From positions 372,001 through 436,000 of the forward strand of contig NZ_JAHCDI010000004.1 in NCBI RefSeq assembly GCF_019697375.1: 64,000 nucleotides of DNA, written 5' to 3'. This stretch comes from Micromonospora tarapacensis (GTDB taxonomy: Bacteria > Actinomycetota > Actinomycetes > Mycobacteriales > Micromonosporaceae). The position numbers and the translations under genes are program-made. The notes beneath the pieces were generated by a model. It had not been told where the DNA came from, made no database searches, and was given only the letters and a program-made list of their open reading frames with translations. Shown one piece after another: positions 13,224 through 14,856 of the stretch; positions within the stretch are counted from its first letter, which is position 1, and each line of letters starts with the position of its first letter.

Positions 13224-13561
13224 CACGAAGCGACGACGGAGCCGAGTAGCGCCCCGACCGCCAGTTGAAGAGAGCCGCCGGTTGCTGTGAGGCGGTCTGG
13301 CACCGGGCCGCGAAGACCCTCCCGAGCTGCGGGAAGAACAGCGTGCGGCGTGTTCACGCCCGGTCGCCGGCCGGGACGTGCACGCGGCACGTCCAGTAGA
13401 GCCCGCCCGGCTGGCCCCGGTGAAAAGGCGGCGAACGAGGCCCCCGCCGGCGCGGGGGCGAAGGTGTGGTGGCACCGCGAGGTTCCCGCTCGCCCACACC
13501 TCCCGGGGCTGAGACGACGCGCTCGCACCCGAGAGGCGAGGCGTCGCGACCGACCGAGGAG
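13224..13561 (+). promoter_or_regulatory. T-box riboswitch, aspartate type
   Basis: The leader senses uncharged tRNA. The T-box core is perfect: AGGTGTGG (13462-13469) pairs with CCACACCT (13494-13501), the 7-base bulge TGGCACC (13470-13476) carries the TGGC that pairs with the tRNA 3' end, and GCGAG (13477-13481) pairs with CTCGC (13489-13493). The bulge C fits discriminator G73, as in tRNA-Asp and tRNA-Asn. Stem I has an AGTA-type loop near 13245 and the GAGAGCCGCCGGTTG loop region at 13270. The probable specifier codon is GAC (Asp) at 13315-13317; AAC at 13327-13329 is a weaker alternative. No U run follows. CTCCCGG (13500-13506) can pair with CCGAGGAG (13554-13561), which contains the ribosome site, so translational control is inferred. 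Confidence 0.85.
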
Positions 13562-13569
13562 CAGCCACC

Positions 13570-14856
13570 GTGCAACGCATCCTGTCCGACCAACTCGTCC
13601 CGCAGACCGGCCGTACCGTCCGCATCGCGGGCTGGGTGCACCGCCGCCGGCTGCTCAAGTCGGTGGCCTTCCTGATCGTCCGGGACGCCGCCGGCCTCGC
13701 CCAGGTGGTGGTCACCGACCCGGCGGTCCGCGCGGCGGTCGAGGCGCTGCCCGAGGAGACCGTCGTCGAGGTGCAGGCCACGGTGGTCGCGAACGCCGCG
13801 GCGCCCGCCGGGGTCGAGCTGGCCGACCCGGTGGTACGCCCACTCGGCCCACCCGCCGTACCGCCCCCGTTCGACCTCTACCGGCCGGCGCTCACCGCGG
13901 GCCTGCCCACCCAGCTGGACAACGCACCCGTCGCGCTGCGGCACCCGAGCCGGTCGGCCGCGCTGCGGATCTCGGCGGCGGCGGTGGCCGGCTTCCGGGC
14001 CGCCCTCGACACCCGGCGGTTCGTGGAGATCCACACGCCGAAGGTGGTCGCCTCGTCGACCGAGAGCGGCGCCGACGTGTTCGCGCTGGACTGGTTCGGG
14101 CGGCCCGCGTACCTGGCCCAGTCACCGCAGTTCTACAAGCAGCTCATGGTCGGCGTCTTCGAACGGGTCTACGAGGTCGGGCCGGTGTTCCGGGCCGAGC
14201 CGCACGACACCGTGCGGCACCTGGCGCAGTACACCTCGCTCGACGCGGAGCTGGGCTTCGTCACCGACCACCGGGACGTGATGGCGGTGCTGCGGGACAC
14301 CCTCGCCGGGATGCTCGACGCGGTCGGCGGCCGGGCCGGCGCGGCGTTGACCGCGCTCGGGGCACACCTGCCGGCCGTGCCGGCGCGGATTCCGGCGGTG
14401 CACTTCGCCGACGCGCTGCGGATCGCCGGGGCACCCGCCGACGAACCGGACCTGGCTCCCGCCCACGAGCGTGCGCTCGGCGAGTGGGCACGGCGCGAAC
14501 ACGGCTCCGACTTCCTCTTCGTCACCGGGTACCCGATGGCCAAGCGGCCGTTCTACACCCACCCGGACCCGGCCCGGCCGGGTTACTCCAACGGCTTCGA
14601 CCTGATCTTCCGGGGCCTGGAGCTGGTCACCGGCGGGCAGCGGCTGCACCGGCACGCCGACTACCTGGCCGCGCTGGCCGCCCGTGGTGAGCCGGTCGAG
14701 CCGTACGCCGGGTACGTCGAGGCGTTCCGGCACGGCATGCCACCGCACGGCGGCTTCGCCATCGGCCTGGAACGCTTCGTCGTCCGGCTGGTCGGCGCGG
14801 CCAACGTCCGCGAGGTCACCGCGTTCCCGCGCGACCTGCACCGCCTGACCCCGTAA
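13570..14856 (+). CDS. Aspartyl-tRNA synthetase, archaeal type (AspS2-like)
   Basis: A class IIb synthetase of 428 residues. It has an N-terminal OB-fold anticodon domain (RIAGWVHRRRLL) and a catalytic domain with motif 2 in FRAEPHDTVRHLAQYTSLDAE and motif 3 in GGFAIGLERFV. It is short and lacks the large GAD insertion of the normal bacterial AspRS (about 600 residues), so it belongs to the archaeal/eukaryotic-like group, which is often non-discriminating between tRNA-Asp and tRNA-Asn. It is probably a second AspRS, induced when Asp-tRNA charging falls. The GTG at 13570 has GAGGAG eight bases upstream. The T-box and enzyme together suggest a self-contained, possibly transferred unit. Confidence 0.88.
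   Translation: MQRILSDQLVPQTGRTVRIAGWVHRRRLLKSVAFLIVRDAAGLAQVVVTDPAVRAAVEALPEETVVEVQATVVANAAAPAGVELADPVVRPLGPPAVPPPFDLYRPALTAGLPTQLDNAPVALRHPSRSAALRISAAAVAGFRAALDTRRFVEIHTPKVVASSTESGADVFALDWFGRPAYLAQSPQFYKQLMVGVFERVYEVGPVFRAEPHDTVRHLAQYTSLDAELGFVTDHRDVMAVLRDTLAGMLDAVGGRAGAALTALGAHLPAVPARIPAVHFADALRIAGAPADEPDLAPAHERALGEWARREHGSDFLFVTGYPMAKRPFYTHPDPARPGYSNGFDLIFRGLELVTGGQRLHRHADYLAALAARGEPVEPYAGYVEAFRHGMPPHGGFAIGLERFVVRLVGAANVREVTAFPRDLHRLTP

Follow-up and report, generated by a model that had tools for sequence, protein, structure and literature searches.

A predicted aspartate-specific T-box leader, probably acting on translation, precedes a second, archaeal-type aspartyl-tRNA synthetase gene in Micromonospora tarapacensis

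Introduction

How is the gene for a second aspartyl-tRNA synthetase (AspRS) controlled in a bacterium that already has one, and what is the second enzyme for? The question is raised by aspS2 of Micromonospora tarapacensis, located on a stretch of 64,000 nt (contig NZ_JAHCDI010000004.1, positions 372,001-436,000) which is called here the window and in which all features are numbered; they lie on the plus strand unless otherwise indicated. An earlier note, made from the letters of this DNA, had read the region ahead of the gene as an aspartate T-box. In Actinobacteria, T-boxes have been described upstream of ileS, and 32 T-boxes were counted in 12 of 19 genomes (PMC2494555).

Results

The aspS2 gene and its genome

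The aspS2 ORF (13570-14856, GTG start, 428 aa) scored 523 bits against the NF003483 profile (cut-off 353) and 332 bits against TIGR00458, under the cut-off of 368. Pfam recognised two domains only in the product, the class II core and the OB fold, the bacterial insertion (GAD) domain being absent, and the best PDB match was Thermus AspRS2 (1n9w). By its family profile, the predicted product is an archaeal-type AspRS, as the earlier note had read it. A second gene, of bacterial type, was found in the genome (834 bits, C4:2874411-2876165), and aspS2 is hence not the only AspRS gene. One GatB is also present, and no AsnRS over the cut-off was found in the M. tarapacensis genome.

At the positions of W26 and K85 of the T. 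kodakarensis AspRS, which we take to be markers bearing on tRNA-Asn discrimination, AspRS2 carries His and Pro, the same as Thermus AspRS2. These residues were discarded as an unreliable test of non-discrimination, because sole-copy AspRSs with Glu and Lys occur in genomes without an AsnRS over the cut-off. Among nine neighbouring ORFs, Pfam names domains in six (AAA ATPase, lipoyl-synthase-like radical SAM, TetR, DUF4166, lipoyl transferase and esterase) and none in three.

Evidence for a T-box ahead of aspS2

When the window was scanned with Rfam at gathering score, no family was reported, because both collinear pieces matching RF00230 score below its gathering score of 93 bits, which is a curation line. 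By E-value, these pieces lie at 13230-13327 (+; 43.4 bits, E 3e-8) and 13434-13497 (+; 19.7 bits, E 0.04). Of six orthologous leaders scanned in other genera, five were matched by the same model end-to-end (36.6-65.6 bits, all under the gathering score) and one, from a Catellatospora (L074), gave no T-box match; the highest score of a relative was 69.8 bits (L152). A third RF00230 match of the M. tarapacensis genome (C4:15294, 18.1 bits) reads by eye as coding sequence and was dropped.

Covariation was then measured in two alignments, one with 27 Stem I sequences and the other with 26 discriminator domains, both selected to be diverse. The test favours the structures, because these were predicted from the same alignments; so measured, 93% of the Stem I cells were paired, both-side changes occurred in 16 of 20 pairs and covariation was 0.443, against 0.176 for shuffled alignments (0 of 500 as high) and at most 0.098 for slid ones. 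With the same bias, the discriminator had 94% of its cells paired, both-side changes in 9 of 17 pairs and a covariation of 0.336, against 0.148 when shuffled (0 of 500 as high) and at most 0.096 when slid. The folding energy of the whole leader was ordinary (z -0.2).

Thus, the segment 13228-13503 is, as judged by comparison, the T-box leader of aspS2. It combines a specifier matching the regulated amino acid, a UGGN bulge fitting base 73 and a conserved secondary structure. The sub-threshold RF00230 matches, the covariation and the specifier confirm the observation of the earlier note; the covariance-model search that it had named as a check failed at the gathering score and succeeded by E-value, with the comparison on its side.

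Anatomy of the leader

A candidate -10 element, TAGCGT (13212-13217), is situated directly upstream of Stem I. All 73 long-Stem-I leaders among the best 80 of 356 related loci have TANNNT here, whereas sliding to ten other positions gave 0-1 of 73, from which a transcript start directly before Stem I appears probable. A strict promoter scan detected no sigma-70-type promoter.

The long Stem I with its AGAGA distal motif occupies 13228-13327; our own model R1, in whose training set the M. tarapacensis leader is included, gave 99.6 bits at 13228-13326. AGAGAGC (13269-13275) forms part of the distal motif and is predicted by homology to contact the tRNA elbow; its A-G-A-G-A is invariant in 27 of 27 sequences. 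The specifier GAC (13315-13317) is followed by C (13318). Stem II (13329-13406), placed by a by-eye alignment of Micromonospora leaders, pairs GCGGG (13329-13333) with CCCGC (13402-13406), an apical insert lying between, and contains AAGAAC (13334-13339) and CAGTAGA (13394-13400), which are named S-turn-like by resemblance. The expected place of a putative Stem IIA/B pseudoknot is 13407-13433. With respect to class I, the leader thus has a long Stem I, a Stem II by alignment and a place where a IIA/B pseudoknot would lie.

Stem III (GCCCCCGC / GCGGGGGC, 13440-13459) is supported by the RF00230 match and by covariation. The antisequestrator (13463-13500) is formed by GGTGTGG (13463-13469) and CCACACC (13494-13500), with GCGAG and CTCGC above; our model R2, also trained with this leader, gave 77.7 bits at 13426-13503. 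Between the paired arms lies the T-box bulge TGGCACC (13470-13476), just as the earlier note had it, and its UGGC complements the GCCA end of a tRNA with G73. A second TGGCACC (13298-13304), inside Stem I, is incidental. The putative sequestrator would use CTCC (13500-13503), an anti-Shine-Dalgarno strand by complementarity, against the Shine-Dalgarno (SD) sequence GAGGAG (13556-13561).

Specificity for tRNA-Asp

GAAGAC was invariant in the 27 aligned Stem I sequences, M. tarapacensis included. The specifier was also read in 113 R1 matches, 74 from the 80 loci (again with M. tarapacensis) and 39 of 43 from a further set, the duplicates L176, L180 and L186 and the weak L139 being left out. GAC was found in 112 of them. 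The exception (L182, genome G343) has the specifier TCC and a UGGC bulge and stands ahead of a serS gene (362 bits), so that the specifier follows the gene; this long-Stem-I T-box is on the minus strand, at about 1501-1746. The bulge was UGGC in 105 matches and UGGU, a G-U fit to G73, in 8.

The tRNA genes in 40 sequence stretches comprised one tRNA-Asp (GTC) and one tRNA-Asn (GTT). In both, the acceptor stem is followed by a G; tRNA-Asn carries the pair U1-A72, described as needed for amidation (PMC9976931). The aspartate specifier, to be read by the GUC anticodon of tRNA-Asp, and the fit of the bulge C to G73 of this tRNA, both put forward in the earlier note, therefore hold. A Thr reading of the region (ACC) was rejected, because GAC is invariant and the next base is C or A. 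Ile T-boxes recovered by the same model had a UGGU bulge; in the ileS T-boxes L220, L225 and L226 of the same family, UGGU is accompanied by ATC in a short hairpin, as seen by eye.

Readout

No terminator-like site was found in 13100-13700, and TTTT was absent between core and start codon in all 78 core-bearing leaders from the best 80 of 356 loci. The strand following the antisequestrator was paired with SD regions across 22 non-redundant leaders: with its own it reached a mean of -14.8 kcal/mol, compared with -13.5 for swapped partners (permutation p 0.007), a modest native advantage; on average, 65% of the foreign partners paired no better. For M. tarapacensis, the antisequestrator had a model energy of -51.8 kcal/mol; the sequestrator, at -49.1, is weak and 2.7 less stable. 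As the 3' arm of the antisequestrator is complementary to the SD sequence and no terminator was found, control is probably translational: an SD sequestrator without terminator is present, though a weak one in M. tarapacensis. Where the earlier note had written antiterminator or antisequestrator, the second term is the one retained.

Distribution and copy number

In a draw of 121 genomes of the family, aspS2 was present in 87, and 92 R2 matches were obtained in 90 genomes. An adjacent T-box was found at 85 of the 87 aspS2 genes, the R2 match lying 24-112 nt upstream of the profile match; the rarity of actinobacterial T-boxes assumed by the earlier note does not extend to aspS2. The two genes without T-box belong to G005 (69% complete, partial match) and to G054, in which a bacterial AspRS is present and the 427 upstream bases contain no T-box core and, by eye, resemble lipA. 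As for the remaining seven R2 matches, four precede aspS2 genes missed by the profile and seen by tblastn (G024, G057, G078, G097) and the others precede ileS (G014, G015, G097). A bacterial AspRS was found in 119 of the 121 genomes; the two others, G025 (80% complete) and G063 (77%), have no aspS2 match either. A member of the same genus, G107, has the bacterial AspRS, no aspS2 and no R2 match.

A draw of 394 genomes of the class, searched with R2 under strict filters and with 12 candidates scored per genome, gave aspS2 in 36 genomes. An R2 match was adjacent in 21, and also in G127, where it stands beside an N-terminal aspS2 piece, the two matching pieces being about 3.2 kb apart; the core of this T-box (L222) is changed to ACA instead of ACC. 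A bacterial AspRS accompanies the T-boxed aspS2 in each of these 22 genomes. The other 14, all of family f39, showed neither a bacterial AspRS at E 1e-60 nor a T-box match, and a re-search of eight of them at a lax R2 threshold also gave no match. This association between T-box and copy number involves 14 sole copies of one family and is uncorrected for descent. G287, also of f39, has both AspRS types and a T-box. A tree of 68 AspRS2 proteins, in which 15 forks are open and which carries a long-branch warning, contains eight of the f39 sole copies; they group in a single clade, with the T-boxed second copies G301 and G041 as its sisters. In the 14 sole-copy genomes of f39 (L154, L156-L162 and six further genomes), the archaeal-type enzyme is the only AspRS found and no AsnRS exceeds the cut-off, an apparent replacement of the bacterial AspRS.

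In two genomes of family f36, G247 (L178) and G423 (L175), it is the bacterial-type AspRS gene that has a T-box discriminator immediately ahead of it, so that T-box control as such does not require a second copy. Weak R2 matches in G265 and G161 were set aside, as neither stretch matches AspRS2. The 80-locus and draw sets overlap, with identical AspRS2 in L072/L195 and L081/L198. Over the 41 genomes searched for AsnRS, none had a match over the cut-off, the 19 matches listed all being at aspS2.

Three leader architectures with one specifier

The aspS2 leaders have at least three architectures with the same specifier. The first, a long Stem I with Stem II, is that of M. tarapacensis and of most Micromonospora among the 80 loci. 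The second, a long Stem I without Stem II, occurs in Actinoplanes, Amorphoplanes, Paractinoplanes, Winogradskya, Phytohabitans and further genera and makes up 31 of 145 long-Stem-I leaders (spacing under 72 nt). The third, without long Stem I, was found in 31 leaders, 23 of them non-redundant. In 20 of these 23, UGAC stands in a hairpin loop of 6-9 bases, as compared with a mean of 1.5 and a maximum of 5 in 200 shuffled sets, and of the 64 loop triplets GAC is the most frequent, occurring in 22 of 23 (mean 8.2 and maximum 14 after shuffling). By the loop rule, the clean UGAC loop is absent or ambiguous in L241, L148, L139 and L259. The 31 leaders of this test left out the four Stem-I losers described below and L074 and L080, whose kind of leader is represented by L234 and L253.

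The base after the specifier goes with the architecture. It is A in 31 of 31 leaders without Stem II, and in 114 leaders with Stem II it is C in 108 and A in 6; in the non-redundant set, A was found in 10 of 10 of the former, and among 35 others 30 have C and 5 have A. This count required GAAGAC, left out L001-L003, L084-L133, L143, L146, L147 and L164-L190, and placed L272 (spacing 76, no S-turn motif found) in the Stem II group; the Fisher p of the association leaves descent uncorrected. Laid on the protein tree, five architecture labels need 13 changes where 4 would suffice, and well-supported branches force at least two changes for the second architecture and two for the third.

Loss and inserts among relatives

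Among the best 80 of 356 loci, the long Stem I is kept in 73, another leader form is present in three (L074, L080, L081) and the long Stem I is lost in four (L042, L060, L070, L004). The discriminator is kept in L042 and L060 and, with a changed core, in L070; no T-box part was recognised by R1 or R2 in L004. The latter is the locus of Micromonospora sonchi, whose AspRS2 is, within the same 80, the nearest to that of M. tarapacensis (93%).

A palindromic repeat is inserted in Micromonospora aspS2 leaders, at the break in these four loci and inside Stem II of several others; it was seen in the Stem II loop of L005, L008, L012, L040, L061, L062 and others. A strict pattern gave 24 copies in the 80 loci and none in the window; it matched 9 of the 80 leaders, missing copies seen by eye in L007, L060, L063, L069 and L070. 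In Paractinoplanes rishiriensis (L076:2841-2930, minus strand), a c-di-GMP-II-GAG riboswitch over gathering score lies about 2 kb from aspS2.

Discussion

From the anatomy, the specifier, the discriminator match, the anti-SD complementarity, the absence of a terminator and the second-copy association, all observed by sequence and comparison, we infer how tRNA binding, switching, induction and physiological role may be linked. It is likely that a translational, aspartate-specific T-box riboswitch controls a spare and probably non-discriminating AspRS. Stem I would choose tRNA-Asp by GAC:GUC pairing and probably also by elbow contact, and Stem II, by homology, would prop the codon-anticodon duplex. 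If the tRNA is uncharged, its GCCA end would pair with UGGC and hold the antisequestrator, the SD-masking strand would be occupied and AspRS2 translated; with charged tRNA-Asp, the antisequestrator would be lost, CUCC would pair with GGAG and translation would be low. In this way, AspRS2 would be made when the bacterial AspRS fails to keep tRNA-Asp charged. As no AsnRS was recognised in the genome, a spare enzyme would be of use only if it charged tRNA-Asn for GatCAB as well. The C after the specifier in M. tarapacensis, instead of the usual purine, counts against this explanation, as do the Rfam scores below the curation line, the ordinary folding energy, the weak sequestrator with the modest outcome of the partner swap, the UGGU bulges, the descent-uncorrected copy-number association, the T-boxes on bacterial-type AspRS genes, G054 and the four loci that lost Stem I.

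An inducible spare enzyme fits the data best, and the back-up role suggested in the earlier note is supported because the T-box goes with second-copy status. AspRS2 might instead serve routine tRNA-dependent asparagine synthesis as the partner of GatCAB, which we regard as unlikely. Both profiles, NF003483 and TIGR00458, bear the name aspartate--tRNA(Asn) ligase, the top PDB match is to the Thermus enzyme that occurs in the transamidosome structure 3kfu, AsnRS over the cut-off is absent from 41 of 41 genomes and C. acetobutylicum offers a parallel (PMC4206432); however, the bacterial AspRS and GatB are present without the help of aspS2, G107 combines a bacterial AspRS with neither aspS2 nor an AsnRS over the cut-off, and the specifier reads tRNA-Asp, not tRNA-Asn.

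A role of AspRS2 in resistance, as an enzyme insensitive to an inhibitor and induced when the bacterial AspRS is blocked by a mimic of aspartyl adenylate, is rather improbable. Such a function would follow the logic of T-box-induced second synthetases, and AspRS inhibitors of the microcin C type exist; yet the locus adjoins lipoyl genes and is conserved across the family rather than tied to a cluster, and no inhibitor gene was found among the nine neighbouring ORFs. The tie to an inhibitor of the main enzyme, for which the earlier note had allowed, thus found no echo in neighbours such as the lipoyl-synthase-like radical SAM, lipoyl transferase, TetR and DUF4166 proteins, and its interpretation as a whole is supported in part.

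Decay of the leader in M. tarapacensis to a form that no longer switches, which the loss of Stem I or of the whole T-box in its nearest tree relatives (L004, L060, L070), the long insert in Stem II and the weak sequestrator would favour, is very improbable given the intact specifier, bulge and arms and the Stem I kept in most of the 80 loci. Equally hard to credit is transcription attenuation in place of SD masking, as the long Stem I, typical of transcriptional T-boxes (PMC7583486), is met here by the anti-SD match, with neither a terminator-like site nor TTTT after the core.

The preferred reading, an inducible spare AspRS, has relatives among known systems. TyrZ-type synthetases are T-box-controlled, and the T-box of the C. 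acetobutylicum aspS/GatCAB genes reportedly has a two-codon Asn/Glu specifier and acts by antitermination. The former are likewise second synthetases under stress, in another phylum and for another amino acid (PMC9437257); the latter, on one of three aspS genes with an extra GatCAB, likewise concerns an additional AspRS (PMC4206432, PMC2494555), in a Firmicute, whereas the aspS2 leader has a single GAC and probable SD masking. Extra AspRS genes occur chiefly in Actinomycetales without AsnRS, and the available part of the paper mentions no T-box for them (PMC4206432). The translational ileS T-boxes of Actinobacteria (classes III and IV) share the core, the SD-masking hairpin and the lack of a terminator (PMC1262725, PMC10482949); the aspS2 leader differs by its Asp specificity, its second instead of main synthetase and its long Stem I with AGAGA. 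Unlike the generally transcriptional class I of the B. subtilis tyrS type (PMC10482949), it is probably translational.

The Actinoplanes-type relatives share with class II (glyQS type) the long Stem I and a linker replacing Stem II. However, class II is described as glycine-specific and generally transcriptional, the absence of Stem II being explained by the strength of the GGC:GCC duplex (PMC7583486, PMC10482949), whereas these leaders have GAC and are probably translational. The purine after the specifier is critical in glyQS, and its change costs little in the Stem-II-bearing ileS (PMC7583486). We read the link between this base and Stem II as a possible trade between axial stacking and lateral support. 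It seems probable that the spare aspS2 of Actinomycetes has repeatedly swapped the whole tRNA-gripping half of its T-box, between a long Stem I with Stem II, a long Stem I without it and a very short hairpin with GAC in the loop, keeping GAC, the discriminator and mostly a translational readout. Glycine would then not be required for the form without Stem II; an A stacked under the specifier would do the work of Stem II there, which is why leaders with Stem II could afford C.

TBDB holds 23,535 T-boxes, Asp ones included, with GAC in 94%, and was partly collected from Actinobacteria, so that single aspS2 leaders may be catalogued there. In the accessible parts of the T-box and AspRS literature searched, there was no report of a T-box on an actinobacterial aspS2, none joining T-box, Micromonospora and tRNA synthetase, and none of a Stem-II-less T-box other than glycine-specific. 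As far as these searches show, the T-box is new for this gene and this lineage, and one architecture present among its orthologues is new as well.

Natural Asp T-boxes without Stem II would make the explanation by GGC:GCC strength directly testable, since the orthologues share specifier and gene and differ in architecture. The association of Stem II with the nucleotide that follows the specifier amounts to a precise structural prediction, and the match between T-box and second copy offers a natural comparison on what spare synthetases are for.
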